A stretch of DNA of 64,000 bases from Nautilus pompilius (Eukaryota; Mollusca; Cephalopoda; Nautilida; Nautilidae). Shown piece by piece: positions 7,350 through 51,760 of the stretch (positions are counted from its first letter, which is position 1; the number at the start of each line of letters is the position of its first letter). Position numbers and translations under genes: made by a program. The notes beneath the pieces were generated by a model, which saw only the letters and a list, made by a program, of their open reading frames with translations, had not been told where the DNA came from and searched no databases. The DNA lies in the NCBI GenBank assembly GCA_018389105.1, contig JACATO010000066.1, forward strand, positions 124,001 through 188,000, in the 5' to 3' direction.

Positions 7350-8384
7350 TTGCTGTCAAAGACCAAAGTTTATTCCAGAGCATTTATGCATGCCGAATTT
7401 CCAATAACAAAATTTAGTTTCTATACTCATTTACTACCAAAAAAAGAAAAGCCAACAGTAGTACAAATCACAATTACATGTTAATCTATATAAATTTTTT
7501 AACAATGTCTTCACGTCTGTAACATAAAATGTACAATTATTTGTTTTTTTAACAATTTTTTTTTAAAGTTTTTTTTTTTTTTAAACTAAATTTCATTAAA
7601 AATATTTCTTGTACCATAACTGGATGGCTGCTGATTCCTAGTCAGTGGATGAACGAACACATTAAGGACTTTTATCACAAGTACACTGGGAAAACAGGTG
7701 TAGTAGCTGTTGTGCTTTGACTAATTATCGCCTTGGCATTGCTTTCATACCCAATCACACTTCGCCTTGTCAAATGGTTTCACATCTGGATTTCATGTAT
7801 AAAGGTAAAGTCGGAACAAACAAACAAAACAAAAAAAGGTAAAATAACAAAAAGATAATCGATGGTAACAGCAATTTTTTTTTTAAAATGTGGTCAGATT
7901 TACATAGTATACCTCATCCTAAGACTAGTAATAAAAGTATAAAAAATACAAGGATTTCTAAGATTCATAAGTACTGCAGACAGACCATATGTATGGTGAC
8001 AGGGACAAGAGATAAAACAGAAAATGTGTGGGGGGGGCACATAAAGAAAGTGGACCGGGTTATTTATTCATTTAATTTTTTATTCCTTAATTTATTGACC
8101 ATAGAGGTTATAGTAAATTTGACCCAATAGCTAGAGCTGTAAGGGGTGGGGGTTAACGCAAAATAAGTAAATGCACCATCAGATAAACAGAAATAATTTT
8201 TATACACATTATATATATATATATATATAATGTGCATGTGTATATAACTCTTTTTAGGAGGTAAACTTATCCACACTGCAGCTTGTGAATTAATCAAGAC
8301 TAGGCATTATTCTTTAACTGTGACAGTCAGACTCATAGCTAGAACTAATTCACAACCTGTAGCTCCTTAAAGATGATTCATTGT
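7350..8384 (-). other. MAO: Probable MAO 3' untranslated region
   Basis: Non-coding, AT-rich sequence between the MAO stop codon and the best polyadenylation signal. It includes an (AT)n tract at about 8208-8230 and a T-rich block near 7550-7590. No other gene was seen on either strand. Confidence 0.4.
7369..7374 (-). terminator. Likely MAO polyadenylation signal AATAAA
   Basis: AATAAA on the minus strand, followed 20-50 nt later by a GT- and T-rich stretch (TTCTTGTGTGATTG then T runs, 7320-7348), the usual layout of a cleavage site with a downstream element. It implies a 3' UTR of about 1 kb (about 7350-8384). Other T-rich sites exist nearer the stop codon, so the choice is tentative. Confidence 0.45.
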
Positions 8385-8528
8385 TCACTTGAAACATCGA
8401 ATATAGATGACAGCACCAGCGCCTGATGCTGCCAGCACCATGGTGAATCCAAGCAGACGCAGAAAGCATGGCACAGACGGCAGGTTTCTTTCCCAAAACG
8501 ATGTATTAAATGGTCGAGCTTTCACCTC
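8385..8528 (-). CDS. MAO: MAO exon 15 (membrane anchor, stop)
   Basis: Acceptor TTCTAG|GAG. 47 codons plus TGA at 8387-8385. Encodes [20 protein letters not shown] then [20 protein letters not shown] and [16 protein letters not shown] is a MAO signature. The hydrophobic run that follows, ending in a short basic tail, is the tail anchor for the outer mitochondrial membrane. Confidence 0.95.
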   Translation of the reverse strand, partial: EVKARPFNTSFWERNLPSVPCFLRLLGFTMVLAASGAGAVIYIRCFK

Positions 8529-11500
8529 CTAGAATTAAAAAAAAGGAAATAAAATGTATTTATTTAGTTATTCTCATTTAAATGAAAGATACTACATTCA
8601 TTTATCAACTGTATATAATTGTATGGATTCTCTGTATTTTGAAATTGTGATTGATCCATCTTGTCTTAGCTTTGGGCATTGGCCAGACATCAAGAGATCT
8701 TTATAGGCAATAATGTGCAACAGCCCATTTCAAGATTTGTAAATGCTAAACTCATACCAGATATTGTTTTCTCTAATTGATTTTACATGTTAGACATTTT
8801 TATTTTAATCATTTACAATCATTTAGCAAAAATCTTTTTAAATATCCTGAGACTTTTGAAGAGTACTGTATAATGAAGATAAATTTTATAATTATACCAA
8901 TATTAGACTGAATTTTAATCTTGGATGTGAAGACAATAGAAAATTTTTTTAAGTATGCTATACATCAATATAAGTAAAATAAGAGATTCAGCAGCAAAAA
9001 TGGGAATGAACTCTTAACTATTGTAGAAAAAAGAAATTGAACTTTCAACCAATGTCAGAAATATTTGTCCCTGATTCTCCAAAGTACATTGATCAAAAAA
9101 AATATAGAAATGCTATAATATACATTATACAAATTTGTTGAGAATAAAAAATTTACACAATTCAAAAGAGACCCTAAAGTTTAACCTACAGAGATCATAG
9201 TCTGTAATACCTGGACATTGCTCATTGTTTTAATGATGTCAGACTGATGATAAACAGTTCCTGCATACCCTAAAGTCATATGACCATTAGTAGTACAAAT
9301 GTCTGGCTCTGGCTTGCATTACAGCATTGCAGCTATATCTCATGAATGCCTGACAGTGTCTTGTGGTGGTGCATTCCACTCTTCTGTCAAGGCTTGACAC
9401 AGTTCCAAAATGGTTTCAGAAGAATGTGGTTAAGTGTTCAATCTACCCAGTCAGTATTTATCCAAAACTTGTGCCATAGGGTTTAGGTTAAGGGAACAAA
9501 CAGGCCATGGAAAACATTGGTTATTTTCATCCTGAAGATGGTTTATGACTGTTCCTGCATGATTGGATGCTGCACCATCATCAAACGAGGGCAAAGAGAT
9601 TGCTGTGACTTCATACAAATGGTAAAAACAGATCTAGTGACCTCATCCTGGTAATGCTGACCTGTAACAGTTCTGTCAAAGATAAGCAGCTCACTTTTGT
9701 GGTCCACACCCAAACTAGAATACTGCCACTGCCAAACTATCTTGATCAGTACTCAGCAAACAATCAACGACAAAGTGACGGTTGGATTTTACTCTCAGAG
9801 AAAGATAATCTGAATCGTCGTCTACCAAAACCCACTCCAGCTGTGCTGGTGTAAGGAAAAGGTATATTTAATGTACAGATCAGCAGAATACATCTGATTT
9901 CATTTTCAAACAGAACAGTTGGCTGAATAGATGATATGGTCCTGCACCAATTTATTCTGGATGAAAAATGATGAGCTGGTGTGGTTTTGTCAGTCCAACA
10001 TGATGATCACCATAGCAGCCACTACCGCTACATCACCTTTGTCAGTTCCTCCGTAATGTACCTCTGCCAAGGTCAGCTGACAACACTGCTATACCAAGTT
10101 GAGCAGCCAAATTGGTCTTCTGCTTGCCTATTTTCAGTCTGTAGCCCAGCTATGTACCACTATTCTCTCAATGCTCAGCACATTTATTATGCAAACATCT
10201 GCAATATGTTCTACAACCAATAAGACCACTGTTGTGCAAACTTGGATTCATATGACTGGAATTTTTGCAGGTGTATTGCATTCAGACAAAGATCGATATG
10301 CAGCACTTGAAGCAACAGAATTGTCACATGACTAAAGTCTTGGGGATTACAAATATCCATACAAGAGGTCTCACACAAAATATGCTTATATTGTTTTGTT
10401 ATGTTTGTATATTCATAGATATTTCTCCTAATACTGTAGCAGACAAAAGTGAAATAAACAAAATTAGAAGTCAAAGATGCTATTTGTTGTAAAAAAAAAT
10501 TAATAGTGACTTCCCTTTAACCCACTCATTAGTCATTGATGAATATACTTCACCCTTCTTTAGCAGTTGCAAAAGGGTTTTTTGCATTCTATCAATCTTG
10601 GAAAATTTGGAAGTGAATTATACTCTCTTTTTTTTCTCCAGCAACAATAATAGCAACACTTATTCCGCAATGGAAAGTAAAAATATCGGTTGATTTGCTG
10701 TCTTTGCAATTTACTTAAATCATCTACTGCACCTGGCCACCAAGTCAAATGTTTATGTTACTATGCAAGCAAATTAGTGCACAGCTGAGTTGTTCAGATG
10801 TGCTTGTCTCTATTCTGGCGGTCAGTCATGCTGCACCAAGACTGACTGAGACAACCACAGTTCAGAGGCTACAAGCTGGAATGACCTGGTCTGGAGTCGC
10901 TGCCACCCTGTGTGCCCAGAACACCACTTCCAAAGGCACAGAGCATAAGGTAGGTAGATATATATCCAACTATAAATGCTTGCAATCACTTATGGGATGC
11001 TGCTACTTTACAATGTTGACCTCTATAACACATTTTACCCAGGTGCGTAAGCAAACACAGCTTCAGTGGTATTGATAGCACTGAATTTTGGCCTTGGATG
11101 TAGCAGAATAGTGCAATGCTTAGTGATTGATGCCGTCAACAGTGTTCATTACTAAAATTACTGTTACACATCCACCTGTACACATATTGATTTGGTAAAA
11201 GAATTATAGTATCTAGAAGAATGTTCTACAACTGCTATGCTGAAAACTTAATGGCAATCAAATACAGAGGTAAGGCTCTTCGGTACCATGTTTTCCCATT
11301 CCTGCAGATTCATGATGGGATATTCCAGAAAAGATTACATTGCCAGGGAGTTCCAGGAGTATGCTACCATGGTTATCTTGCTTCCCAGATTTAAACTGTA
11401 TCAAACAACTTTGATGTGGACTTGATCACCATGTGTGTTGTTCACAGCCACTCTCTCAGACACCAGAAACTTCTCCAGGTCTAAGAATGGAAGAACACAG

Positions 11501-14500
11501 CAGGTTATAAAATGGTGTCAGGCTGTGGTCAACTGATATGGTGTGCACATAAGGTACTAGACTCTAAACACCTCCACCCACTGTGGTTTCTTTTGTACCT
11601 GCTGATTCACATTATGTAACTTCTGTAAAAATTTATATAAGGCCAGGTGATAGTAAATAAATTTATTATGACCCTAAACATAGTCATTGCATAATGCATT
11701 TTTCTCAACCCTCTGTATACCACGTCAGTTTTTTACCTTACTTATTCCACACCCAAACACAGAAGGGCTTTCTCACGTTTTTTTTATTATAAGTGCTGTG
11801 TCAGAGCCCCTATGGTTCAACCTGTGCTAAGCAATACAGATTTGAAGGGTAGTGGTAGGGGATTATGAATTTATTTTTATTAACTTAAAAAAAAAAATTT
11901 TAAAAAAAATCAAACAAACTTAAGAGAAAATAACTACCACAGTTGACAAATATAAAGCACTAATTTTAGAAAACACCTTGTTATTTAAAAAAAAAAAACT
12001 ATTCAAATTTTGCATAACTTAGATAAATAATCAAAATAAGAGGAGTTTCTGTAATAAAAAGTGCTAACAAAAGTAATAAGTTATTGCTCGCTGGTTTCTC
12101 TGCTAAGCCAGCAGTCTAGAAAGAGTTTTAAAAAATTTACATAATCTTCTGGTTCAGCTTTCCATATCTCGTTTTCTTTAATCTTGTCCATGTTAAAAAG
12201 AATCTGAAAATAAGAAAAGAGGGGGTGGGGGTGTCAACGTTTGGCTGAAGAGCAGATGTGCGCAGAGTAGACAAAGCAGAGATTCAATGTTACACCGGGG
12301 ACACTGAAAACCTAGTTGTGGGATCAATGAGAAAAACTAAACTAAATATCACTTTGCAGCAGAAAATCCTTAAAATTCACTCTCAACTGTATATCAAGTA
12401 AACAAAAAACCCTGTATTCAGTAACTACCCCCCAACCCCTTTTTTCTTTCCTTAAATGTAAATAGAAACAAAAAAAAAAAAAAAGAGTTGTCCCTTACAA
12501 TGAATGTGTAACAATAATGGTAAACAGATATTTACACTGGTTTGTTTATTAAACATTAAATAATATATCATGTTTCAGGAATATGGCAGGTTACCTTAAA
12601 GTTACAAAACTAACTTAACTGGGCATATACAAGAGTCATAGACAATACACTGAGCTTGCAGATTTTGCCACTTGGGCACACCACTTATACTATGTCGTCG
12701 CTGTAACAGGAAACAGTAAAATAGCAAATTATCGACAGCAGGAAGTTCCTGCAGTCTTCCCAATATTTTCATAGTTTTTGTTGTATTAGTGTAAAAATTA
12801 CATAAGTAAGACTTGTTTATTGTCTATTTATTCACAGCAATGGCTGTGAAAAGTCATCAGTTCTGATTGCCATAGTTACAGATAAGCTTTATAGAACAGT
12901 ATTTAGTTTATGATTTAGGGATCTGCCTCTTACATACAAATATGATTTATAGTAAAAAAGGTAGTACTTAAAACCTGGAACCATTTCAGTGAAACAATGC
13001 CAAACTCTATTTTTTCCTTATCCACCCTCAAATAAAAACTTCATCAATGCTCAGGATGAGGATGCACTATAGATTTACATAATACACCTAATACTGAGCA
13101 TGATCCTGAAACCAGTTTTCTAACTTTTCAAGTGATTTCCGCTGAACAAACTCTTGCTATTCCATGCAGTGATTCGTTTAAACAGCAATAACCAGTGATG
13201 CTATAACATATATGCTAAATTTCATTTTACAATTAGCTGAATACTTACCTCCCTTGCAGCCCGTTCTCCAGACTGAACAGCTCCCTCCATATAGCCTGAC
13301 CACTCAGTCGCTGTTTCTGTTCCAGCAAAATGCAAACATCCAAAAGGTTTTCTTAATTCCCTGAAAATCATTTTTTTTAAAGAAAAATTGTTGTTGTTTT
13401 TTTTCCACATGTAGACATTTTTAAATTCTGACTTTAAATATTAATCTCTCTTTTTTTTTTTTTCCAATCTTCATACACTTTCTTAAGACAGTGTTTTCAA
13501 CCATAAATCCCAAACTTTCCAAAAAGTGACTGAAACCAGGAAGTGCTCCAAGAGATAACCAGGGATTTAAAATGGACATAAACACCTATTATCAGTATTT
13601 AATAAATGTCATAAATAACCCGATTATGTAATTGTCAGACTCTATTCAGCAAAAATCTTATGCTTTGATTGCGTACTTACCTGTATGTTGGATTCACCTT
13701 TTGTTCTAATCCATTATTGTGCTACATTGGACTTTTTACTACAACCCCATCCTAAATCAAGTAAAATACTGTACCATTACCTAGTTTATAGTCATTACTA
13801 CATTGACTAAGGAAACATGCTACTGCACAAGTTTCCTAATATCCAACACAAAAACAAGTTTTTATTTTTCTAAATGCAGCTCTTGTTTCAACGAGTAGTT
13901 TTTTTTTCCTAAATGCTAAAAAGATGCATGCTTTCTCCAGTAATCTGGGTATTATTTATTAAAGATTGAAAACTAAAGAGAATTTCTCCTCTTTAGTTTT
14001 CAAACTGCTGCTGTTTCAAATCTACAGTACAAATTATGGGGGTTAACATATTACCAAAAATTCCATTCTATAAAAATTTTAACACAAATATAAGCAGTTG
14101 GTGAGCTGTAAAAGCAAGCATTTGCAAAATATTTACTACCAATCATGTTGACATACACATATCAAAAGAACAATTGTTTTTCTATCAGTGCAATGCCCAA
14201 GCTGGAATGTCTATTTTTTTTTACATACATGTCAATTTATGTTTGTTCTGCTATCATTCTTTTGTCTGTCACTGTATGCTTGCACATATATATAATGCAC
14301 GCATACAAATTTTGTTACATTAGGTTTAAATTAGAACTGCGATAACTTTTTCATCAAAATGTCCTTTTCGTTTTCATTGGTGTTCAATCAATTGTGGCTG
14401 CCAGTGTATATAACATTTCATCATTTTTTCCCCCATTTCCTGCTGCATCATCTTTTCTATTATAACTACAAAAAAAACAAACAACAAACAAACAAACAGA

Positions 14501-17500
14501 GTAAGTAATTCAGTCATGGGAGCCACATTATGCAAAGGATGTAGGTATCTTGAAAAATCATTCAGAGATGGGCTCACTAGGATGATTGGTAGTTTGTGTA
14601 ATCTTAGTTATAAATACTAAAGCTCCAGTTGCCTAGTTTCAGATGCTGTGTCTTCTCTACCTTTTAGATGAAGTTAATAATCCTCTATTATCTATTAAAA
14701 TAACTGAGCATCAGTGATATTGAAATTGTGGCTATTATGATTTACAGATTTAAATAGATATGTGGTATGCCATTAGCATCAAAAACCAACTAGGGATATA
14801 ATGTAAAAGATGAGGAATGCCTGCAGCTAGACATGTTTCTTCACTAATCATGCTGCTTTTTCCTGGAATACTTTACCAAATCAGGTAGCAGAAGCAGGTG
14901 TGTAAACACTTAAGAACAGACTAGACGAGCACCCTTTTTTTTTGGCAAGAAGACGTTTTATATAATATATGGAAGATCTGGTTTTATGTGGATTATAACA
15001 TAGTTAATGACGAACCATTACTGCTATGATTGAAATTTGTATTTCTACATTTCAGTAAGTATATTCTCTTGCTGATCTAGGTGCAATGGTTTCCTTAAAT
15101 GTAAATAGCCTCAGTCTAATCATTGCTTTAAGATCAGAGGTTATGTACCTGGGATATCTTAACATTAGCAAATGTCAAACCCTTCTCGTTATTGTCCAGT
15201 CCTCTATCTGAAAATATTAGGTAGACACAGAAATAAGGCAAGGGGAAGGGGTGGTACCAGAAATCATGACTAGCATAACAGTACCCACTGTACTCCAACC
15301 AACATAATGAAAGTCCCTACCAGGACCCTTCGCTTTTCAGGTGTCGAAGGAAAACCAGCATGTCCTATGAAAATCCATGCAGCCAGCTGATGAAGAGCAA
15401 GGAGAAACTATACTAGTGAGAATGATTCAGCAGTAGCAATTTTTTTCTAGCAGGCTGAAGAGTTAACTGATGCTTTAATAAGAAATAAATGACATACTTG
15501 CCAAACTTTGTGAGAAAACCTGGTGGCATCATTGCTGTATAGCAGCCTCCAGACCACTGCTCCTCCATCCAGTTTTTCTCTTCGTAATGAACCGGCTACA
15601 AAAACATGTACGTACATGTATACATATACACATATACATTTATTTCAGGAACAAATCAGAAACATACATTCCCAAGTCAGTTATTGTTAAAACAATATTC
15701 CTAAAAGAATATTACATTTCAATTTTTTTAAAAAAATGTTCAGATATATTTAGGAAGACAAAGTAAATACTAGTAAATCAAACAACTCAGAGCTGTTTTT
15801 GTTACCGTTATCTCTAGCAAGTACAGAGTTTGCTTATCTCCCTTGAAAATTCATTTGTTTAAAAAAACAACAACATAGTCAAAAACTTTTTAAAAAAACA
15901 TCTTAAAGTCAAAATTTTAAAAGACAGCAAACAACAAAGCCAAATAGATTTCTGAGTTGCAAATACATTTTTTTTTAAATATCTAAGAATTGTTATTTAA
16001 ATTAAGATTAGTTTTGTGAATTCCTATCTGTCTCTGTTATTTGAAGATTTAAGCTTAAGTATTTTCAATTTTTGTTTTTGTTGACTATAATCAAAGGTGA
16101 ATTCTTTTTTAAAACTAACTTTTTCTCCACTAATTCATGGTAAAAGGGCGCTGCAGTCTGTTAATAGGAAATAACCAAACAACACACCTCACCTCTCTAT
16201 CTCGGAATTTATAGACACTTCAGTCGGTTTAAACTATTTTAAACATGCACGGGGTCACCATTGCCATTGTTCTTCTGTCAAGAAGACTGCAAACAACTTT
16301 GTGTGCTTCACACCTGTGACAGGTGGCCCTTGTATAGGGTGGCGTAGCAAAAGTTTGTGCCGCCCCGATTGGGGGGGGTCCTTAATTCCCCCCCCTCCCC
16401 CACAAGAAAAACCTTTTTTTTTTTTTAAATTGCAATAGACCAAGAAATCCCTTCACAATGGGTGGTTTGTTTTTTAAGGTCCCTACTAGAACTCCTCCTC
16501 TTTTTTTTTTTTAAATTCTCTCCTCACAAGGGTTCAAAAAGACAGCAGTCTTCGAACTACTGGTTTGAAAAATAAGATTTTTCCTTCTTTAAGCATTTGA
16601 TAGTTTGATTGATTCTGCTTATCGAAACTGAATGATGAATAGCGGTGACACGTGTCAGCAGCGTGTAGACTCTCAGTCTTTTGGGGTGATGACAAGAAAC
16701 AAAACGTTTTGTGGAATCCTTACATGCAGCGCTTCCTCGCTCTGGAACACCTTTGAGTAGAGTTCGGCGATTTTATTCTTCCGCTCCTCTTTAGTAAGAC
16801 CTGTGTACCTACGAGCTTTGTCAGCTAAAATAAATCTGCAAATGAAACAGAAGTGCAGGTTTTATGCGAGGCCAGTTGGAGAAATGAGTGCATGGCGCAC
16901 AGCAGATCTCTGGCTTTGGAAGCCTTTAAAAAAAAAAAAAACAGAGAGAGAGAGAGAGAGAGAGACAGAAACGCCTAGAGAAAATTGAAACATCAATTTT
17001 GCCGAACCCTCACGCACGCGATCTGGCAGTACTGTTTTTAATTTCTCTAAGTCCCATCTATAATAAAGTTTCTCCTGGCTGGTTGCTAAGAAACCATTCC
17101 CCACAATGCTTTTGGATTGACTCTAGTTGCGTCGAGTTTCATAACGGGTGCGTGATGTGAACGTTTTCCCATTTACCGACAGAGAGCAACACGTTTCCAA
17201 ACTGAACCCAATTTATAAAAAAAAAAAGAAAAACCACCACTGTTAAAAAAAATTGCAAGGTTTCTGTTTCCTAGAGAGAAAAAAAACAAAACAATACCAA
17301 AATCTCTTGTCAGTTGTACTAGAGTATTAGCAGTTATCTCCCATTTGGTTCTCACCGCAATCACAAGCCAAGACTTAACAGCTATCCCCCCGCCTCCCTC
17401 CACCATTCTTTCACTTTATGATTGAAACTTCAAAACTGATTTGTAAGCTGAAATTTTACTAATTAGCACTTTGACCATACCCCATCAAAGCAGGATGTGT

Positions 17501-20500
17501 TCCATCTGGTTTCAAATGGTCCAGTGTGAACCCAATAAGCGCTCCATCATCGTCGATAGCAGATGAACCGCACATACCTACAACAGCAAAGGAAACGCAA
17601 TGCTGGCAAACCAATAACTCATTATAAGAGAAAGGGGTAAATTATTTATTTTTTTTTTTTTAAATTTCTGAAATTTTTCAAGATTAAAAAAGAAAGACAC
17701 CCAATATATAATATTTATATATTTAAATTTTGGACATAATATTATCTGCTAATCCAATTTAACCTATCTCGTGGTTTCATGGAAAAAAAAAAAAAAAAAA
17801 CAAAAAAAGAACAAGTCACCAGCAGCAGAGGTGCAGTTTATCAATGACCCCACCTTCCCATCAAAACCGACAGTGCGACGATGACGACAATGACGACAAC
17901 CAGCTGTTATCATGCTGCTTTGTCAACAGCATCGACGTAACTGCCGGGGATGATGCTTCTTTAAACGCTTCTCGTCATCATCGACCTCAGACGTTACAGA
18001 ACAAACGCCACTGACCTTTCTCTCTCCAGAACGGCCGTTTGTAGTACATGAACGTTTTGATTACAGACCCCATCGGAATCCGCTGAAGCAGCTGGTTGCG
18101 CAGGCACGGCAGGGGCGGGTCGTAAATTATCTTGTACTGGAGCGGAAGGGGGTTGGCCAGTATTACAAACCTTGCCTGAAAAATAAACCATCACCTGGTA
18201 AGCAAGACGTTTTTGATCCAAAAATTTTTTTACAAAAATGAAGACTGTATACCTTCAAATGCAGGGGTGGGTGGTGGTGAGGGGACTATATAAAAATTAA
18301 AAAAAGCTACATTTATTAAATCAGATAGATTTTTTTCTGTCTAGATCCAGTAAAAACTGAAAAGGTAAAGAGAATCTGCATACATACCACAATGACTTTC
18401 CTGAGATCTTCAAAAAGTAAAGAAACTTTACTTAATATTTTCATTATTATTGTTAGCACATTAGTAATGGTAGTAAAGAAACTTTACTTAATATTTTCAT
18501 TATTATTGTTAGCACATTAGTAATGGTAGTAAAGAAACTTTACTTAATATTTTCATTATTATTGTTAGCACATTAGTAATAGTAGTAAAGAAACCCCCAA
18601 AAATATAATTTAGTAGGGGGGTTGTTGTTTTTTTTTTTAATATCAGGGTCCAGACACTAACTCTGTTTGCTTGGTTGAAGCAAATACATGTAACGGAACA
18701 TGTCCTCCTAGCTGTTGTGTAGTACACCAAATTTATACAAGGGGGGATAACTTTTTGTTTTACATTAGAGACAACCTTGATGAGCATCCAGTGGCAAGGT
18801 TATCCGCTAGAAAGCAATGGCCATCCTGTGACAACTCTTCGTCTTTAGCTGTAGAAAGAAACTGAAGTGTTCAAAGGAAACCAGTTGGTAAAGAAGAGCG
18901 AGAGGAAAACAATGCCAGAAAGGTCCAGCAAACTGAGCCAGTCCTGATTTGGGGATCAAAGTTGGGCCCTTAGCCTTGGCAGTCTGGTTATGTTAACCAC
19001 TGGGGCACCGACCACCCTTCAAACGTGTAATATCAAGAGATAACCAAACAAGGGAGATGAAGATAGTCCAATACTTAAAGCTTGTGTATGCTATATTCTA
19101 TTCCAAGCTTCTAAAAAAGGGGGAAAAAATTTTAAAGGGATAACTTCAAATTACTGATTCACATTGCAGTGCAGTTACAATCTACCATGGATAAATCACT
19201 CAGCCCCAATACTCATAACTGCCAGAATCTTACAGAATAATATATAATAAAACATATTTTAAAAAAATAAACTCCTTTTGCTCAATATTTAGTTTTTTGA
19301 TCATGTAACACAACAACAAAAAATCAAATGAAATTTATGAATTTGCCTTATTTTTGGTGCAGTCAAAAATTCTCAAGTAAATATTAGCTAGTGAAATCTT
19401 GTGATGGTTTCCTGACTTCCTGTGATCTACTACAACTGATGAAAATCTTAATTTTCTCTACAGAAAATAATTAGAGTCCAGAAATTCTTATAGTATCAAA
19501 AGCTACGATAGTTTGTGGGCATTGGGATAGGCTACAGTTGGCCACGTCATAGCTTTAGTACCTTCCCAGTTGATGTTTAAAGGGAGGAGGCATGGGGTTT
19601 TGTTAGGCATTAAAGCTATGACGACACTTTGGTAGCTGATCTTGCACCCTGCCACAGTCTATACTAAGGTGTCATCACCCATTCATACCAGTCTTATTGT
19701 TCAGACACTTAACCATGAAATCCAAAGTCGATGAATACCTGTATTTGAGAGTAAGTGTTCTGTGCCCTAACACAGTAATCTAAGATTAGTTTTGTTTGTA
19801 GACTTACTATGAATTCACGACCAGTGATATCTTTGACCACGGCCTCTGAAGAATTCTGTGTGATTGTGATGACTGGATGTCTGAGTAGCACGCGATCTGC
19901 TGAAAAATAAAAATAGAAGAGAATGTCTGTAAGTACTTATGATTTTATTTCTTGTACGCACACCTGTGTATGAAGTGATAAATCTCAGGATAATGGCTGA
20001 TGCTTGGGTTTTCTCATGTTGTCAAGTTTCTTCATTACGCTTCTGCAAAATGTCAGAAAGAGGGGGAGGGACTGATAAAAAACACTTATTCTCCATAGAG
20101 ATTATGCTAAATTTTATAGTGTAGGTGAACCACATGCAAGCACAACTGGAAACTCTGACTGCTCTTAACAGTGACCTGAAGTTTATCTAAAATTTCAATA
20201 TCAAATGCACACACCATTACCAGCCTAGGTAAACATAAGATAGTCAGCAGGCCAGAAAAGTTTCTAAACTTATCTGCATCTCCCCCCCCCTTTTTTCTTA
20301 TAAAAAAATCTTTGATTTAATTGCCTGGACATGCAAAATTATTCCTAACAAATGATACAATTATCAAAGAAATGTCTTATATCCATTTGCAAGTGTTCTG
20401 TCTCTCTTGTACCTGTCATGATGGCTTCCTGCTTCCTTGTAACTGCCAATCTATGAGAGTCATAATTAAAGTATATCTCTGATTACTTACAGGAAAACCA

Positions 20501-23500
20501 CAATTTAGATAAGTCTGTGATGTTATTCACACAAAATAGCATCACTTTTCTATACAATCTGATTTTTAACAACATGTTATTCCTTCTAGTGTTATCAGCC
20601 AGCAAAAGCCTCACTGCAAAGAAAATAGTTCATCATACGCTTGACTACGACGACTCGTTGCAACCTCTAACTGATGCTAGGCCAGCTTCTAGTTGTAATT
20701 TAAAACCAACCTCCTAGTCGATCCGCCATCTTGATACTGATCTGCTGAGAACCGCCACAAAATTTTCGTTCCTGAAACAGAATAAAATATTTTCAATAAC
20801 TAATGTAGGATAAGAAAAAAAAACACCAAGCACAGATTTTTTTTTTAAAATTATATAAATACTTTACTTTTACAGTTCATAACTATTCCAAATTAATATT
20901 AAATTTGCAACCATAAAGAAACCATGGAAAAACAAAAACAAGCAAAAAAATTTATTGGTATATTTTCTTCTTAAATGCTATTGTTACATATTATTTGCTA
21001 CACATTGGGAAAGATACACAATTTTGTCATTAATGGGTAATTCGTAAAAGTTAACTATAATTTCGAGGGGAATACTTTTAGAGAACAGAACACTCGAAGA
21101 CATCTAGCCTGTGATGACCCAAATAATTTCGGTTTTCCACCCATAACCCTCTCAAAGTGTAAGAGCATGTACTGAATAATTACACCATGGTGTACACAAG
21201 ACAAAGTATCCAAGACCAGTCTTGATCACATACCTACAAACACTAAACACCATGACACAATGGAGTAGAGTCTAACCAAACCCACTCCAATTAGCTAGCT
21301 ATCCTTCATTACACCGATATTCATTAAGTGCTTTTGTATTTCTTTTATGTCGACCACTCTTTGATAAAAAAATACAAATCTAATTTGGGATTTAAACATG
21401 TAAACCAAGAAGCATTTTAAAATATTTTTGATGAAGGAATATGCATTAAAATAAAAACTATTTCTTCTCTACTGGTGACACCTGTATCACTCAAGGTCTT
21501 GAAGATGCTGCGCGTCCAATCGGAATCTTGTTTTTAATCTGGTAAAAATTTAGAAAACCTTCCCATAGTGCAGTGCTACAAAAACTGAAATTAGGTTCTA
21601 AACTGCTGTAGAACACGTTCAGCTATGAAATCACTGTAGACCTTAAACTCATGTCAGACACACCAAGATGTAAATTTGAATACAGCTAATGAGCTAACGT
21701 GTCTTTGTCCATTGGCCATAGTTCCAGTAATTAAGAATCTTTACATTTTTATAGTTTACTAATAGAAACAATTGAACAATATTGCATAAATGGACAGGTT
21801 GGTGATACAGAGAAAATCTCTAAACTACTTTGCACTAAGAAAAATCCAGCAGGGAAGTCAACCACTCATCTGAAACCTGTTACTCTCTGCACATTTGTAA
21901 GTGTCCAACAATTTAGCCATTACCACTTTGTAAACTTTAGCATCTTAGTTTTTTTTTTAAAAATAATAAAATAGAGAAACAAAACATTGTTAACTGCACC
22001 TGACCCCCGTTGGTGGTAGATAAAATCCTCTCTACACCTCCACAGCGCTGGATGTAATTCAGAAACCACAAGAGGGAGCACTCGTAGGGTTCAGAGGTCA
22101 CATTCACATTGACAAACAAGTTTGCAAATCTACGGACACTTCTACAACAAAAATCAAACTTAATTATTCATGCAAAACTGAAAGTGAAAATAATAAAGCA
22201 GATGTCGATAATTGGCAACCATCAAAGAGTCCAAACACTGAGGAAACTGAAGGTTAAAAATAAAGAAAAAGAGAGATTTTGAACAAACCAACCTGTGTAC
22301 AGAAACAGCAGGATCAACTATAATTAAATTTGATTAAATAAAAGAAAATTCTGTATTTATCTTTTTATGAGGTGTGGATAACAGCCAGTCCTGCGTATAG
22401 GACATACTGCAAAACAATCGTAAAAACTTAAAATCCAGAGAGGAGAATAATAATAATAATGAGCAAAAGAAACAGAGATAAGTAGATTTTTATAAAAGAA
22501 AGAAAACAAAAATAAAAGCATCACATTAAAACAACAAACTGCAAAAGCACTACGCGGTCATGCTTGAATGCTCATAAAAGGTTATTCTGCCCAGACAGAG
22601 CTGACTTAACCATCTGGTTTCAGCAAAACCTGGAATAATTATAATTCCCTTCAGTTCTTCAGGGCCCTGGAGACTGCAGAATTTTGCAGACAGTATAAAG
22701 AAAGCTGATGCGCACTATTCTAGCAGTGCTACGAATATTTATTTATTTATTATTACTATTATTATTATCATTATTATTATGGAAGGTTCAGCTTAAATAA
22801 TTTTTTAATGAAAAAAATTTGCTACTTTTAATTGAAGTTTTTAGCCCCAGAAGCATATTTAAAAAAAAATGAAGTATAGAACAGCGATAAGGTATTTATA
22901 GAAATGGACTGATCAAAATTAACCCTTCCATATCTAAATCCCCTGCCCACCTTTTTGGAATCACATTTCCATTAGCACTGTGTTTTCTGAAAATTTCTCC
23001 ACTTGTGATGCAGTGTATACCTCACCCTTGTAGTGCTGCTGCTGCTGTATGTATGTTTATTAATGAGCCAGGAGACCCTGGGTGAGAAAATGGATGGCAC
23101 GTTTACATAGGGGGCCTCAAGAGGCCAAGGCTGCCATGAATGGGTAATAATGAGACCAGTATTTACTAAAAGCTTCTTCTGCGAAACAAGAATCTGTCTG
23201 CTAGTTCCAGGTGTATCAACTTCTACTGGAGGATAAAACAATTTAAGTCAGGGTGAGAGTTCTCTTAAAAAAAAAACAAAAAACAAACAAACAGGTTAGA
23301 GAGATTGCAAGTTGGAAATGTGAAACAGAGAACAGAATGTGTTTGAGGTGGCAGAAGAGCTTAAACAGGCAGAAAGAAAGAAGCGCGAAGTAATCGGCTA
23401 AGGATTGGCACCAATCACCAACAACAACCAAGATGGCTGGTCTGCACAGTAAAACAAAAAGCGGTGACAAACCGGCGTCTCCCTGCTAGCCACAGTCGAC

Positions 23501-26500
23501 TTGTTTGGTTCAGTTTCTTCCTGTTGAGGGCAGGTTTCTCAGTTAAATATGGAACATCCTGGGTCAACTTTAAGAATTTAACTTCTCTTCTTCTGACTTG
23601 TCTTTTTATTGCTAATGTTTTTGTTTTTTTTTTGTGAATGTCTGCTTATTAGAACTTCCTTGTTCGTCCAAGTTTTTTTTATTTTCATTAGCATTTCCCC
23701 TCCCCTTCCCAGCAAAAAATGATGATACTGTACAGCACGCAATCAGAAATTGCTCCTTTGCAAGTCTGAGCAAAATGACCTCCTATGAAAACTATAACAA
23801 AAACCATGGCATGAGCCATCTGCTGGACATATAGGTGGAGAACATTAAAAAAACAAAAAAAAAAAAAAATCACCTGACCACCATTGGTGGTGGAATAGAT
23901 TCTCATAGCTCCACCTCCACCCTTGACATACCACAGAAACCATAGCAATGAAATTTCATAGGGTTCAGAGGTGACATTAACTTCTATAAACTGACTCCCA
24001 AAGGCTTTTGCTGCCCTGGAAGAAAATTGTGAGTTCAATATGTAAATATTAGATTTCTGTCACTTTTTAAAAGCTGTTGCATGGCACATGTATTAACCGT
24101 TTGTCGTTTATATAGTTACCTTTGAATACAGCCTACTTAGATGGAGTAGATCACCCACTTAAAGTAAAAGACAGTGAAGCCAATGATAATCACTATACAG
24201 TTCATTAAAACATTTCAAATTTTGCAGTTAATAAAAGGATGTTGCCATTTAAAATAATAACTTAAAACTATCCATCCATAAAAAACAAACAAACAATGTA
24301 AAGTATGCTTTCTGATCCTTTCTCCCATATTAACAACAACACATAAGTATAAGCTAAGTTCCTAAACAGATGTCCATCTCCAAAAGAAGTCAAACCGGAT
24401 TAAAAACAAACAGAAACAATACACAGAATAATTCAGACAAACGATTTCCCCCTTCCATATTAATAGTAACAAATACAATAAGTTATTTAACAGGCAGAAA
24501 TTGCAAGTGGCCATTCACACCATGAGCCAGACCTGTCTAAAAAAAAAAGACAAAACACCCAAAAAGCAATTGTCATATTAACAATTTAATAAATCTAGTT
24601 ATTATCAGAATAACTATTGTTCTAGCAAAACCTGACAAAGCTTCATTTTTGTTGATTTAGATAAAATTTGAAAAATGAAAAATGTGGGGAATAATAAATC
24701 TGTATGGCATGTTCATGCCAGTTGATTTTTCAGAGTATGAGAATAGAAGAAGAAAACTGTAGAACTGATCTGCACCTTTTTTTTTGTTCTTGGGGTTCTT
24801 TCAACAACAGTAAAAGATCTCTTGTGAACCTTTACTGCCAGCTTTCCCTAAAGCATTAAGCTACTATCGCACCATATAATCTAATTTTGTGTGTGTGTGT
24901 GTGTGTGGTGTGTGTGCGTGCGCGCGCACGCAACACATTTATAGAAATATAATCAAACAAACATGTGATTTTTACATTAAAACAGACAGATCCCCCTTTT
25001 TTTTCCACTCCCTAACAGTAAAGTCAAAATTTACAATTGTGATCAATTTCTTACAAATTCAGGTAATGAAATGCGTTATTGTTTCTAAAATTCTAGAATC
25101 ACAGCTATATTCCAGATGTTTCATCTGGAACAAATGTAAATGCAGTAACATTTCCAGTTATGCTAAACTTTGGCATTTGGTTTTAATTCATACCTGTCAC
25201 ACACTCATGGCCTTTGTACATCTTTGACTACACAAAGATTAAAAAGCTGGTGCTACCATGGCTGGTCAACAGTCAGCGTGAATCTGGCGGACCACATTAT
25301 GTCCGAGCAGTAATGCTACCCTAAAGTCGTCATCTTCCTTTTAACAAAAACAAACTACTCAGTGCAAAAAAACAAGACAGTGAAAGACTGGCAGAGATAT
25401 GCCTTCTACATTGAATGATCCCGGGTTGACCAGTTTAAAGCTCTGGCCACAGACATTACTTTTACACTCTTCTGAACAGAAAACGTCTGAAAATAAGCAA
25501 ACAGAAAAGTCAGGAATTCACATAAGCTGCCTAGAAGACCTTGTTGCGCCTGGAATTCAGCACAACATGGATTGGCCACAGCTGAGAATGTGTTCCCAGA
25601 AATAAAATTTAAAAAAAGGAAAAACCAATAAAGTCAGCTGACTTACTTTGTCCAGCAGACTTTGTTGAAGAACTCCTGCATCGTCATGTTGTCCCATTCT
25701 TTTGCATGCGGAGCCATCCAGGGTGCATCCATTGGAATCTAGAAGGCGAAAAAGGGGAAGCAAGAGATCAGTGCCACATTGGAAGCTTCCAGTCAATCAG
25801 CTCTAACCAATCTGTACCCAGATTTAATGCCTAAAAGTGCAACTACTCGCAGCAATAAAAACTGATTTAAAACTGCGGACGCCTTTTCTGACATTCCCTT
25901 CACAGGTAAACAGTTACAGTTTTGATAGTTTTTTTTTTTTTTAATTACTGCCTCTCAAATAATAAAGTGCTCTAAGTTTATATTTATGATATTTGTGTTC
26001 CTCTTTTATTGGAGAGGTATTGATAATTTCAAACTGCAAAATCATTTTATTCTAATGGTAAAATGCATGCAAAAATATAGGGGATGCTCAAAAATAATTT
26101 TTTAAAAAAAATTAATAGTTAGTCTATCTAGTTACCATGACTACTAAATTCATCTAAGCACTTAGTAAACTGAACTATGACCATAGTTAGACTTGCCCTT
26201 AGATGCTCATTAATTTGTGACTAAGAGATTAGCTGACTTATACTATATGAGTACTACAGTTACAATTTACTGGCCAGCAAGATCAGCATCCTTGAGCCCT
26301 GGGCTGGTTAACTTGAATGTTTCCTTATCCTGAGGGAGGGAGAGCAGGGAAAATGGTAAAATTTAAAACAAAGATAAGGAATCAACAAGAAATACTCTGC
26401 TATGCTTAGAGCTGGGGCAAGCAATTCAGAGAAAGAAGACATTATGTGGAGGTGGGTGGAAATAGGGGAGGAAACAACCAGATGTTTTTCATTGTCTTTT

Positions 26501-29500
26501 CTTCACAGAATCAAAGCATATGATGAGACTTCATTTAAAAAATATGCTGCCCTCCCTTACCCACAACAGGTAGCGTTTTATGCAATTCTTTAAAATAGTG
26601 GGGCTTCCTCTTCAATATGGTAGAGAACGTTACCTTCACCATCCATCTTCGAGTGAACCAGCATTTGCAGAAAGATTACAAATTATTCAATTTGGTATAA
26701 TTGTCCTGGCTGAAAACTGTGGTCATGTTGTGTACTCTAACGCAGTCCAAGCAAAATGAAGCACACAGCATTTGCTGCACACACTGGCTACTATAACTGA
26801 AGACTGTAAACAAGCTAACTAAGACTTTAGCATTAACCCCAACGTACTTTTTAGAAAAACTCTCCTGATGATGGCGGTGGAGGGGTGCTGGGGGGGGGGA
26901 GGGTACATTAATTAATGTGACCCAAATTATCCCTCCACTTTCTGAAGTCACCAATAACTTTCTGTTCTGAACAAAATTACCTTCTTTTTTTTTTTCTTAC
27001 CTCTTCTGCCATTTTGTCCATCAAGCGGAATAAATTGTTCATGTCCAGAGATCCTAAAATTCCTAACGGCGGAAACGCACTACGGAATCTTTTAGATTTA
27101 CCCTTAAAAAAAAAAAATTTAGTGTTAATCAAAAGAATTTTGCAATATGAATATTATTATTTAACCTTTTTTTTTTAATTGAATCTGAAATATTTTATTT
27201 GTATATTTTTTGTAAGAAATTTCTGTGCAGCAGGTTCGGTTTCCATTTTTTTTTTTTATTTTCCCAATTAAAGTTTAAACTTATTACAATAATTATAATA
27301 AAGAAGAACAATCGTCATTGTTGTTGTTAGTATTCCAAGATAATTTAGAAGTCAATTAAACCACAATTCTTTCTAATCCATACTACCTTAAGTAGAGAGC
27401 TCCGTAGTGGAATAACCTACATCATATACTTACATATGAAAAACAAAAACAAAATTCAAGCATCAGGAGAGAAGATTCGTTTTGTTCATCCAATTTAGGC
27501 TCTTTTTTTTTTTCCTTCAAAATATGAGAAGAATTCCATAATGCATAATCTAAAATCATGATTTGGCTGAAATCTTCGCAGCAGGATCAGAATTATGCTA
27601 TAATATTCAGTGAGTTTAGTTAAATCTTCCACCTTCTGAAAGAATGGATCATTCAACAGTGTATTCAAAATATAGTTTTGACAATCCATGTGATATACCG
27701 TGTAAAACAAAGACTAAGGTGGGCGGAAGTAATTCTGAAATAATAGTAACTTCTAAATAACTCATTATGCCTTTAAATACTGTGGGTGTGTGCGTGTGTG
27801 TGTTTTTTTAAAATTACCTTTAATTTATCACAAAACTATCAACATCTAGTGTGAAGTATATCCATTGATATAGTTAAATGTTACCTAAAGAGATATTTAA
27901 TAGAGATCTATATATATATATATATTTATATACTAGCAGTTAACCTGACCTGAATGTGTTAAAGATACCAGTAGGTGCATAAGATGGTTCTAAATCATTA
28001 CCTTATAGTAAAAGACAGAATCTTCCACTTCATTGGTAAGAAATGTCTTGACGCCAAATTCTCTGGCGAGTCGTAAAATCCGATTTTGCGTTGGACCAAC
28101 ATAAGCACCTCCAAGATCAAGGTAATCAACATTTGGATTCTGTATGAAGAAAATTAAACAAACAAGAGGTTCAAAGACGAAAAGTTAGGCATTTTGTGTT
28201 AAGGGATTATCAAATTAAATTATATTTCTCCATGCACAATGTCAAATCAAAGTAACTTTCCAATTGATAATACCTTAAAAGGACTGATACAGTCAAGAAT
28301 GCAAGTGTTAAAACTAATATTGTGTTGGGTAAACAAACTAAGACTGAAGAAGCAATGTAGCCCAGGTGTACAATCTTTGCAAAGTTAACAGCAGCAGGAA
28401 AGAAAAGTGAAAAGCCTGCGTTTTGTTAAATCATAAATTCTCAAATGCACATCAATAGTTAAGAGACATCTGTGAGGTGGGAGGGGAAGGGACCAACACC
28501 AGAACCCACACAAAATTGCAAAGATCACACCAACTTGCGAAACAGTGATAAGGCTGGACGGCACCATCATCTTGCACAACTGTGACGGACGCAAAGCTGC
28601 TTTAGGTAGTCTCACCATGATATCAGTGCACGTTTGAAAAAAGCGTCGCAAGTTGGAATTTACTAAAAGTCTCTTGGAATCAATGGCTAAATGTTAGTTG
28701 TTATGAAAGCTTAGTTACAGAGTGAATGAAGCCTGTTTATCACTCCTCTGAAAAGAAACTTGGTGGATGTGTTTACCTGGATAAAAACCCAATTCTAAAA
28801 AGGAAGAAGAAGAAAAGGTTTTACGTAAAAGATTACCTGAAAAAAAAAATTCCCATAGCACAGATAATAATAATAAAAAAAAAAAAATCCCACCTTTGTT
28901 CTTAATGTGAAGCATTTGTGCAATGCTAATCAACACCTGAATCATTTTCAACTGTATTTTGTCATCTTGTAATAAGAATAGGAAAGTCACCTCGTAATTA
29001 ATTTTCATTTAAAGAAAACCTACCCAGTGCCTTTATTATTGGTTTCTGCTTCTGAATTTTACTCAGTAAACTAATCAAATACTTTTTTCTTTTTTTTTAA
29101 CAAAAGAAATGTGAAAATTCAATTTATTACACAACTTGATTGAAAATTTACAAATCTATCAACATTAATAACCACTAAGGCCTGGATATTTGATCTTGGT
29201 TCCAAGTTTACTTAAAGTTTTACATCCTTTTTTTAGTTTTTTTTCCGACCTTTCTGAATGTCTACTTACATCGAATACGATCAGAAGAGTAAAAGTTGTC
29301 TAATAAAATTTATACCTAAAGTCTTCGTAAATTCAACTATAATGATTTCTCCCATAATTCAAATTTAGATCAATAGTGGGATATCTATCACTTGGCATGC
29401 GCACACACACAAAAAGAAAGCAGGGTTTGTTTCTTGGTTGGCACTTTTTATTTGTTTGAAATCAGAAAACAACGTATGGAGGTTTTTCCGCTTCCTCTGT

Positions 29501-32500
29501 CCGTGACAGTCAACCCACAATCAGATTAGTACTATGTGGAACTGCTATCAAAATCACAGTCTGTCAGCATAACCAACGTCGTAGGTTACCTTACTTCTGA
29601 TCATCTTAGAGTTCAGTTTTCCATCAAGACAACTCTACCTGGGAGAACATGCAGGGCTACTTCATCAGATTAGCTCTTCCAACAATAACTCTGTTCAGTC
29701 AAAAAAAAAAAGCTGCATCATTATCTCCTCTCTCTTTTTTTTTGAGAAAATAATAAGTTGTCCTATTTGCAGAAGCCAAATATTTAAGGAATGTAGCATT
29801 AAATAGCCTAAGTTCCCTCCCCCGCTACCTTAAACTCTTGTAATGGATTCATATGACCCCTCCATGTATGCTCACTCACTCCCGTTAACACATGTCAGGG
29901 TGTGGGACCTATAAGGAACCAACTGGAGGAATTAGCTTTTTGATCACTTGGTATACAAAATTATATCTTGCCACAGATACTATGGTTATTCAAACATAGC
30001 CGGGGCCAGACATGATTATGGCAATTCTATTTCCAGCAGGTTCCATTTAAATAACTCTAGTACTAAGAAGAGCTCTTACTTCGCAATCTGTGGTCAGTCT
30101 ATGGTATATGTCTTGACTTGCACCCTGTAGTAAGCAATATTAGAGGTTTTACTATAAGAAGAATTTTAGTTTTTAAAGGCCTACTTATTAATGTTCGAAA
30201 GCAGAAATTGCTTTTTGATGGGTTTGCATGGCAGCTTCCTCATCAGATGGAACATGTTGTAGCAAAACATACCATCAGAAAAGCATAAATAATATTCGCA
30301 TGAATTTACCCAGATTCTTCATTTACACAGACAAAAAAAACAGGACGACGGAATATAAAACTGGAGTTCTTGTCTTTAAAAAAGACGAAGCAAATTAGAA
30401 CTGACCCCGGTTTCCGCAAAGCATTTCACTTATACCCAGTTCCCCCCCACCTTAATTTTTGTTTTAACTGTTCGAAGTGAATGCTCAAGCCAAGGTTTTT
30501 AAAAATAACAGCTGAAGGGATGGAAGAGGTTGGTTCAACATTGGACAAATATGGCCAGCACACACGAGTCTAAGATGCACTGTGTTTGACCAGCTTAACA
30601 GAAGAATAATCCAGCAGAATTGCAAAGGAACTGGGGAATGCATAGGAGACCCAAGCCACTGAGTAGGGAGAAACCAAAGTACCAAACCCTGGAAGATTAG
30701 AAATCCTGCTTTGAAAACAATGCCAAAGAACCACGAAGGTATAGAAGCTGCATTTGCATCATTAATCTTGAGTGTGTCTTATTGATTAGATTTATTTAAG
30801 GTAATCTGAAGAACCTTTGCCCATTGTTAAAACCACATGAAAAAAAGTATCCCCAAACCCTTCCTGCAGTTTAACACGCACCGGTTAAAAGTGATTAGCT
30901 TGGAGAGAGAGAGAGACTTCAAATAATTCCATCCCAGCTCTCTTGCATGATCAATAAGACATCCCCTATTTTTTTTTTTTTTTTAAGGGATGCTGCGGTA
31001 CAGTGCAAACAAATGTTTTTTCACCTGAGTCCTGAAATTTCCACTTGTCGTTAAAACTCACGTGAACAGTAAATGTGCGTCCGCCAACTCTGTCTCTTGC
31101 CTCCAGAACAAGTACATCCACCTTATATTCGTTGAGAAGTTTGGCAGCAGACAGACCTTAAAAAAACAACAAAATCTCGTTTTTATTTGAAACAATAACT
31201 GCACACCACCAAATATATTAGAGAAATGACAGCTTCGTGGTCATTTTTTTGGAAAGGATTTGAAACTGTGAAGCTGCGTATTATCGGTAGATAAATGTTT
31301 TACTTCACCTGTGAAAAAAACAAAAGAGTGGAGGCAGGCAATTTTATTTCATACTTTACAGACTTCAGGTAAAATACGGTTATTTGTTGAAGAAATTTTG
31401 GGAGAATTCGAGCAAGAGAGCGTGAGTGTGACAGATGGAAAATGGGGTCTCAACTAACTCAAAAGAAATCGGTGCTAACCTGGAACTCAGTATTACAAGT
31501 AGAATCGAATACTGGAGATGGATTATCGTTTCACTGCTGTGCACTCTACTTCCTGGACCAAAATTGTGAAAATAGAATAGTTTCTGTTTGTTACATTAAA
31601 GAGGAAAATGAAGTCCAGTGATTTGGTTTGCATAACAGAGAAGCTGATGCCGATAACAAAAAATGTCCTATCCATTCCCCCCCCCCAAAAAAGTACCTAA
31701 ACAAGCTTGAGACAGTCATTCAAACACCTGATCACTGACAGAACATCGTTCCTTCAAACAAGTAAAAAAATAATCATGGTATTAAAACGGATCAGAAGTT
31801 AAATATCAAATGCACTTTTCTACTAAATATCCACCACAGGAAACGTCTGAGTTAGTTGAGGAGGAGGGTTAACCGTTGTCACATTCTGTTGCAAACTTGC
31901 TCTGGTTTAAAGTCCTACCAACTTTATTAAATATCTGATTTCTGGCTAGAACCTAAAACTAGGCTACATCTCCCCCTCCCCAATAGCCAGCCATTTAATA
32001 TGTACCCACCTCCCTAACCTCTGCAGTTACTATTAGAATCTGACTCCTTTTAGTCAGCAGCTGATGATTTAAGATAAACTTTCAGAGCCCTTGATGCATG
32101 GGGTTCTAATATTACATGAGTGGAACCATTCCCATTAGAATAAACATACTGGTAAGTTAACAGGGTTATCTCTTACCCAACCAAACACAGCCTTGAAACT
32201 AGCTTGCTTTCTGAATGATGATTCATTAAGAGAGTTCAATAGATAAGCTATTTATATATATAGTACAGCAATGATTAAACCTTTGTTCTTTGCCTGTATA
32301 TGAGTTTTAGCAAGTGAAGAGATTAAATCTCTAAAAAATGAATAGAATCAAAAGTTAGCATAAGGAAAAAGAAAAACTCTCTTCCTGAAGTCAGATAAGG
32401 AAGAGTATCCCTTAAAATCAGGTCCTGAGGCCTGTTCAGGAAGACTGCTGAAAGATTAGAGTTAAAAGGATTAAGGTTTAGTATCAAAATTAATTCTATG

Positions 32501-51530: not shown

Positions 51531-51760
51531 TTAGCCTGACAAATCCACAAGACGTTCCTGAGACATTGTAGACCTTAAATAATTCTTAATCAGCTTGAGT
51601 TTGCTACATGGCCTCTCTGCAGAAGCTACTGTTGCTGGAATTGTTAGTCGTATTCTTAAGCCAACATAAACATTTGGAAACAGGTCACCCAGTCTGCACT
51701 CTGTTAACAAGCTCAACAGATCTAATGGCTTTAACTGTGCATTTACAAAATTTGCTTTAT
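51531..51760 (-). pseudogene. hAT transposase C-terminal dimerisation fragment
   Basis: Minus-strand frame reading LLSLLTECRLGDLFPNVYVG, LRIRLTIPATVASAERPCSK, LKLIKNYLRSTMSQERL, then a stop. This is the classic hAT C-terminal block (LT-x-P-V-T-VAS-x-ER-x-FSKLKLIK). The conserved SER-SF core has become AERPC, and upstream parts are missing. Confidence 0.85.

Follow-up and report, generated by a model that had tools for sequence, protein, structure and literature searches.

Mutually exclusive exons that change a metabolic enzyme in a tissue-specific manner are known for PKM (exons 9 and 10) and CYP4F3 (exons 3 and 4). Here we describe a candidate pair of this kind, exons 6a and 6b, in the monoamine oxidase (MAO) gene of the mollusc Nautilus pompilius. 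The gene lies on the minus strand of a 64,000-nucleotide stretch of genomic DNA (contig JACATO010000066.1, positions 124,001 to 188,000), referred to below as the window, and all exon coordinates are positions within this 64-kb window. PKM and CYP4F3 differ from the MAO pair in that they are other enzymes and that their exon choice is reported to be proven by transcripts.

Among the systems that we met in print, the closest one is coq-2, which in helminths, annelids, and molluscs has mutually exclusive exons, the choice of exon deciding between rhodoquinone and ubiquinone (PMC7434440). The likeness consists in a conserved enzyme, two exclusive exons, and one swap, Phe to Leu, near the substrate. 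However, the coq-2 case is based on RNA-seq, exon removal in C. elegans, and several phyla (PMC7434440), whereas the MAO pair is known from the genome sequence of one species.

Within the MAO family, the natural comparison is with the tetrapod enzymes MAO-A and MAO-B, described as having originated by gene duplication in the tetrapod ancestor; jawless vertebrates keep one gene (PMC11833248). The tetrapod enzymes belong to the same family, have the same catalytic residues, and also constitute two forms differing at the gate position equivalent to residue 199 (MAO-B numbering is used here unless stated otherwise). However, they are encoded by separate genes that diverged throughout (PMC11833248), whereas here a single exon of a single gene is swapped and the second gate residue, 326, is shared. 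An earlier sequence-only reading of the window had proposed exon splicing as an alternative to the vertebrate gene duplication; this wording needs refining, as the MAO-A/MAO-B split dates to the tetrapod ancestor (PMC11833248).

A further parallel is the Ile199Phe mutant of human MAO-B (PDB chain 2bk4_A, with Phe at the 199-equivalent position), which resembles the 6a form in having aromatic residues at both 199 and 326; the mutant is reported to be stiffer, with a narrowed entrance and large inhibitors hindered (PMC12223828, PMC6442233). The mutant is an engineered single change in a protein that is human elsewhere, whereas 17 residues besides 199 distinguish 6a from 6b. Mutually exclusive MAO exons were not reported in any of the matches listed in the open-licence literature, a scope outside of which subscription papers and preprints fall.

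The exon 6 pair and its reading frame

The gene model, in which each exon was deduced from its open frame and splice sites, comprises a complete MAO gene of 15 exons, with a further intact version of exon 6. The protein has 518 amino acids with either 6a or 6b and an identical C-terminal end. The two isoforms match the Amino_oxidase family (PF01593; E 1.1e-76 and 5.4e-77), and the 6a isoform has full-length matches to MAO-A (2z5y, E 8.3e-199) and MAO-B (1gos, E 1.3e-197), with 290 of 500 residues identical to human MAO-A. Lys296 is kept in both isoforms, as are the flavin-linking Cys397 and the cage residue Tyr398 in exon 12 (15498..15595) and its partner, the second cage residue Tyr435, in exon 13 (13249..13360), both exons being placed by gene model and alignment. 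Judged by family and full-length similarity, the gene product is a monoamine oxidase.

Exon 5 (25647..25738) ends in phase 2, two bases into the codon of Lys159, and is followed by exons 6a (23874..24015) and 6b (22000..22141), both homologous to human MAO exon 6. Each copy has 142 nt between an AG and a GT border, starting in phase 2 and ending in phase 0. The donor of 6a is CAG/GTGATT followed by 15 T, and that of 6b is CAG/GTGCAG. The copies are 1,732 nt apart and are identical at 85 of 142 nt and at 29 of the 47 whole-codon residues. The sequence-only reading had listed two complete copies with intact splice sites, matching phases and this protein identity, together with the phase of exon 5, and our model agrees with it on all these points.

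The outcome of incorrect splicing, also correctly anticipated, is decided by the frame. An mRNA in which 6a is joined to 6b reads QKCP and then a stop (the fourth codon of 6b), while direct joining of exon 5 to exon 7 breaks the frame and ends translation at codon 178, which lies 18 residues past Lys159. Since nine exon junctions lie downstream of the former stop and eight downstream of the latter, nonsense-mediated decay is expected by the established principle. In the proposed scheme, each productive mRNA would carry one copy of exon 6, and mRNAs with both copies or neither would stop early and be removed. The earlier statement that a transcript is bound to carry exactly one copy holds for productive transcripts only. 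The reading frame does support the mutually exclusive architecture with a swapped gate residue.

No second pair of this quality was found in the window. A scan of both strands for open segments bordered by AG and GT(A/G), 90-240 nt long, equal in length and frame and at most 6 kb apart, returned 6,514 pairs (minus strand 3,443, plus strand 3,071), and only one of them, 6a/6b, had at least 40% identity. The same scan, run as a control at a COQ2-like locus elsewhere in the genome (contig C2008), detected no pair, though molluscs are reported to carry the coq-2 pair (PMC7434440), so that the scan may miss such pairs. A third copy of exon 6 or another duplicated exon in the window was rejected, as tblastn with all 16 exon peptides gave no duplicate besides 6a/6b (best other match E 0.006); exon 10, which carries Phe326, was found as one copy only. 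In the whole 728-Mb genome, each exon 6 peptide has two matches at E up to 1, both inside the MAO gene.

Comparison of the two copies revealed clear constraint at the protein level. The proportion of synonymous differences (pS) is 0.83, near saturation, and that of nonsynonymous ones (pN) is 0.27, an estimate that pools the history of both copies and does not separate the present-day constraint on each. Different codons are used at 15 of the 29 identical residues, and the copies disagree at 7 of the 13 fourfold sites that can be compared. When the same number of random changes was introduced into 6a without selection, none of 20,000 simulations kept 29 identical residues (the best kept 23), and the frame stayed open in 2,970. 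In comparison with exon 6 of human MAO-A, 29 of 47 residues are identical in 6a and 32 of 47 in 6b, in line with the whole protein; with this ordinary similarity, neither copy looks decayed. Given the adjacency, equal length, splice sites, phases, frame, and protein-level constraint, 6a and 6b are likely a mutually exclusive exon pair.

Predicted effect of the exon swap on the substrate gate

The swapped segment covers 47 residues (160-206), and 18 of them change. We considered 20 cavity and catalytic positions, several of which are confirmed as such by the papers cited here. Only two of the 20 differ between the forms: at 167, 6a has Gln and 6b has Leu, and at 199, 6a has Tyr and 6b has Leu. 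Exon 6 bears the cavity residues 164-172 and 198-206, and position 199 changes class, from aromatic (6a) to aliphatic (6b), while the neighbouring residues 197, 198, and 200-206 are identical. The partner gate residue 326 comes from exon 10 (17481..17577, placed by gene model and alignment) and is Phe in both forms; in the enzyme's own numbering the gate pair is 199 and 327. The residues given for positions 199 and 326 are the same as in the sequence-only reading.

The remaining listed positions are common to the two forms. All seven catalytic and cage positions in the list (60, 206, 296, 343, 397, 398, and 435) match both human enzymes in both forms. Among the shared cavity residues, Ala102, Phe164, and Asn172 agree with MAO-A and Thr201 agrees with MAO-B, while Val171, Ser314, and Ala316 match neither human enzyme.

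Selectivity of MAO has been assigned to the pair of residues 199 and 326, or 208 and 335 in MAO-A (PMC12860832, PMC12223828, PMC11833248), and residue 199 of MAO-B is described as a gate whose rotation joins two cavities (PMC12860832). For MAO-A the reported 199/326 pair is Phe/Ile, for MAO-B it is Ile/Tyr, and two fish enzymes have Phe/Leu and Phe/Met (PMC11833248). The pairs found here are Tyr/Phe in 6a and Leu/Phe in 6b. The MAO-A-type gate (Phe208, Ile335) is absent from both forms. The 6b form also departs from the MAO-B-type combination of Ile/Tyr with Cys172: its Leu/Phe pair belongs to the same residue classes, but its residue 172 is Asn, as in MAO-A. By sequence, 6b thus resembles MAO-B in residue classes, and 6a is closest to the Ile199Phe mutant of MAO-B and matches neither human enzyme.

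The two forms had been presented as an A-like and a B-like enzyme. This is too strong, because selectivity rests on the 199 and 326 pair, Phe326 and other listed positions are common to both forms, and the Tyr/Phe gate of 6a matches neither human gate; we have dropped the label. A narrow-gate form (6a) and a flexible-gate form (6b) seem to fit the residues better. With an aliphatic residue 199 opposite the aromatic residue 326, 6b would have a movable, MAO-B-like gate, and 6a, with aromatic residues at both positions, would have a narrower and stiffer entrance. Both forms would then share their chemistry and differ in the amines and inhibitors reaching the flavin, and an effect of the swap on substrate specificity is plausible.

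Exon choice and alternative explanations

Taking these data together, we consider it probable that exons 6a and 6b stem from a tandem duplication that took place long ago in a mollusc MAO gene, and that they are used as mutually exclusive alternatives that alter the substrate gate.

The three introns next to the two copies measure 1,631, 1,732, and 1,228 nt. Steric exclusion was rejected, given the 1,732 nt between 6a and 6b, and there is no sign of mixed spliceosome types, as the borders are GT-AG throughout the MAO gene; therefore, neither seems to explain the exclusion. The likeliest mechanism would be regulation by splicing factors, possibly tissue by tissue, with the reading frame removing the mistakes. 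In the 6a-6b intron, T runs number 25 where 10.2 would be expected, and CUCUCU occurs 3 times where 0.5 would be expected, the only enrichment among ten motif patterns. A run of 15 T (23855-23869, minus strand) starts at position +5 of the intron past the 6a donor and could be a TIA-1-like site, and the sole UGCAUG of the three introns, about 33 nt before 6b (position 1699 of 1732; 0.7 expected in that intron), could be an Rbfox-like site; either may be due to chance.

Several observations weigh against this interpretation or lend it no support. In the three flanking introns, UGCAUG, YCAY, and UGUGU, which were among the ten patterns, are not in excess. The best RNA duplexes among introns 5, 6, and 7, with low-complexity sequence omitted, were matched by 7, 7, and 13 of 20 shuffles; pairing between introns as the switch was rejected, being no stronger than in these shuffled controls. 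Inverted repeats amount to 87 pairs, the longest 25 of which are mostly A/T-rich. Splice-site strength gives no clear support for a regulated choice: the 6a and 6b donors lack G at +5, which is present in 11 of the 13 other donors, and among 15 donors scored against a consensus 6a is fifth and 6b fifteenth (0.45, near exon 14 with 0.50 and exon 7 with 0.97), while in predicted U1 pairing 6a and 6b are the fourth (-8.2) and fifth (-6.8) strongest. The missing G thus does not mark them as weak donors. No such exon pair was found in a second species among viral contigs (two scans) or prokaryote genomes, collections in which molluscs are not expected. Finally, 16 of the 18 residue changes fall outside the listed cavity positions, so that stability or the dimer or membrane surface could be affected instead.

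The last point leads to the strongest rival, in which the exons are likewise mutually exclusive, but what the swap adjusts is protein stability, contact within the dimer or with the membrane, or turnover speed, the change at 199 being incidental. The clustering of the 18 differences at 160-170 and 187-199, equalled in 342 of 20,000 shuffles, is also in its favor. However, the exon carries two stretches of cavity residues, and residue 199 switches class amid identical neighbours, which makes this explanation rather unlikely.

Another possibility is that a single copy makes the protein and its twin is a regulatory, or "poison", exon, the joint inclusion of both leading to a stop and lowering MAO output. 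The early stop in 6b, with nine exon junctions downstream, is what such a device would use, but a poison exon needs neither a protein sequence nor a frame of its own, whereas both copies keep, in the right phase, an open MAO-like frame of 47 residues despite near-saturated synonymous change; we regard this possibility as quite improbable. It is also highly improbable that one of the copies is a relic no longer spliced in. The consensus score of the 6b donor, the lowest of all and yet near those of exons 14 and 7, could be taken as a sign of decay, but the same donor is fifth of 15 in predicted U1 pairing, both copies have open frames and AG and GT borders, are of the right length and in the right phases, and resemble human exon 6 to an ordinary degree, and the unselected simulations never kept such protein identity. 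Assembly error or chance similarity, for which no supporting point was found, is hardly credible, as 57 of 142 nt differ between the exons, each exon peptide matches these two genome sites only at E up to 1, and no other pair of such quality was found in the window.

Age and significance of the duplication

Returning to the mutually exclusive exons with an altered gate, the divergence between 6a and 6b is about the same as that of either copy from its human counterpart. With a single species to go by, the duplication may be very old or the divergence may have been fast. Tyr178 and Leu182 are common to 6a and 6b and are present in neither human MAO, which tends to favour a duplication that postdates the separation from the vertebrate lineage. 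A broader, tentative proposal, to which we give somewhat less than even weight, is that this mollusc, and perhaps molluscs or lophotrochozoans widely, has one MAO gene with two gates made by tissue-controlled splicing, that the duplication is very old and parallels, by way of splicing, the MAO-A/MAO-B gene duplication of tetrapods, and that gating at residue 199 was thus diversified twice by different genetic routes.

The interest of the pair lies in residue 199 being a well-studied residue of a drug target. In an oyster study, the measurements concerned one MAO gene and one MAO activity (PMC5834419), and a review of antidepressants in molluscs came across no work on MAO inhibitors (PMC12737102). 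If two gate forms are indeed made, the outcome of work with substrates and inhibitors in the neurobiology and ecotoxicology of molluscs would hinge on splicing in the tissue used. The pair would also provide an independent natural experiment on the residue that separates MAO-A from MAO-B inhibitors, exon duplication doing in a mollusc what gene duplication did in tetrapods.

Other exons of the gene and features of the window

The coding part of exon 1 (42918..42966, minus strand, as all exons of the gene) contains the start ATG and the FAD-binding motif GAGLSG; it joins exon 2 in frame, and the match to MAO-A and MAO-B extends from query residues 5-7 onward. The following exons were placed by frame and homology: exon 2 (31062..31156), exon 3 (28002..28139), exon 4 (27001..27102), exon 7 (20711..20771), exon 8 (19808..19899), exon 9 (18016..18175), exon 11 (16724..16835), exon 14 (12141..12203), and exon 15 (8385..8528), the latter encoding a hydrophobic C-terminal segment, likely a membrane anchor, and the stop codon. 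Compared with the human exon sizes, the region of the single human MAO exon 7 corresponds to two exons here, 7 and 8 (61 and 92 nt), and exon 11 (112 nt) seems equal to two human exons.

The intron between exons 8 and 9 contains 3.2 near-identical copies of a 56-nt unit (18416-18594). An open frame on the minus strand (51534-51893), some 8.6 kb upstream of where MAO translation starts, matches the hAT transposase C-terminal dimerisation region (PF05699, E 3.2e-8; one of ten frames scanned). Rfam and tRNA scans of the window gave no match.

Related genes and other features of the genome

A genome search with exons 12 and 13 found, besides the MAO gene, two diverged relatives on contigs C2095 and C279, with 63% and 72% identity over about 30 residues and 39% over a further 36. 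No convincing exon 6 match was found near them (best E 0.40), one 10-kb stretch being covered for each and, for C279, only about 5 kb upstream. As to a second canonical MAO gene, only these diverged relatives were found, and a diverged MAO could escape the search. The relative on C2095 (G000:C2095:106500-116499, ~8045-9326) is a diverged flavin amine oxidase gene with GGCF in place of the GGCY of MAO, and 32% and 65% identity to MAO in two exons. Wider amine-oxidase relatives gave 22 genome matches, three of them in the MAO gene.

At the COQ2-like locus used as a control (G000:C2008:259500-269499, open frame from contig position ~266923), the exon with YPLAKRYTYWPQ was detected by a motif scan in a single clear copy.

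The genome encodes multi-unit molluscan-type hemocyanin, with 14 matches to PF14830, a beta-sandwich family that we take to be molluscan, a content that fits a lophotrochozoan host. The 14 PDB sequences listed for these matches are all named hemocyanin and include KLH1, the best one being 6r83; both are presumably gastropod proteins. Two clusters of seven units each (G000:C557:780470-791999 and G000:C1362:511129-522124) represent either two genes or two haplotypes.

At least 117 COX1-like matches were found genome-wide (96 of 180 candidates scored), many of them fragmentary and with TAA or TAG stops. They look like abundant nuclear insertions of mitochondrial DNA, or else like numerous organelle pieces included in the assembly. 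One COX1 fragment has no stops when read in the invertebrate mitochondrial code, the code being our choice.

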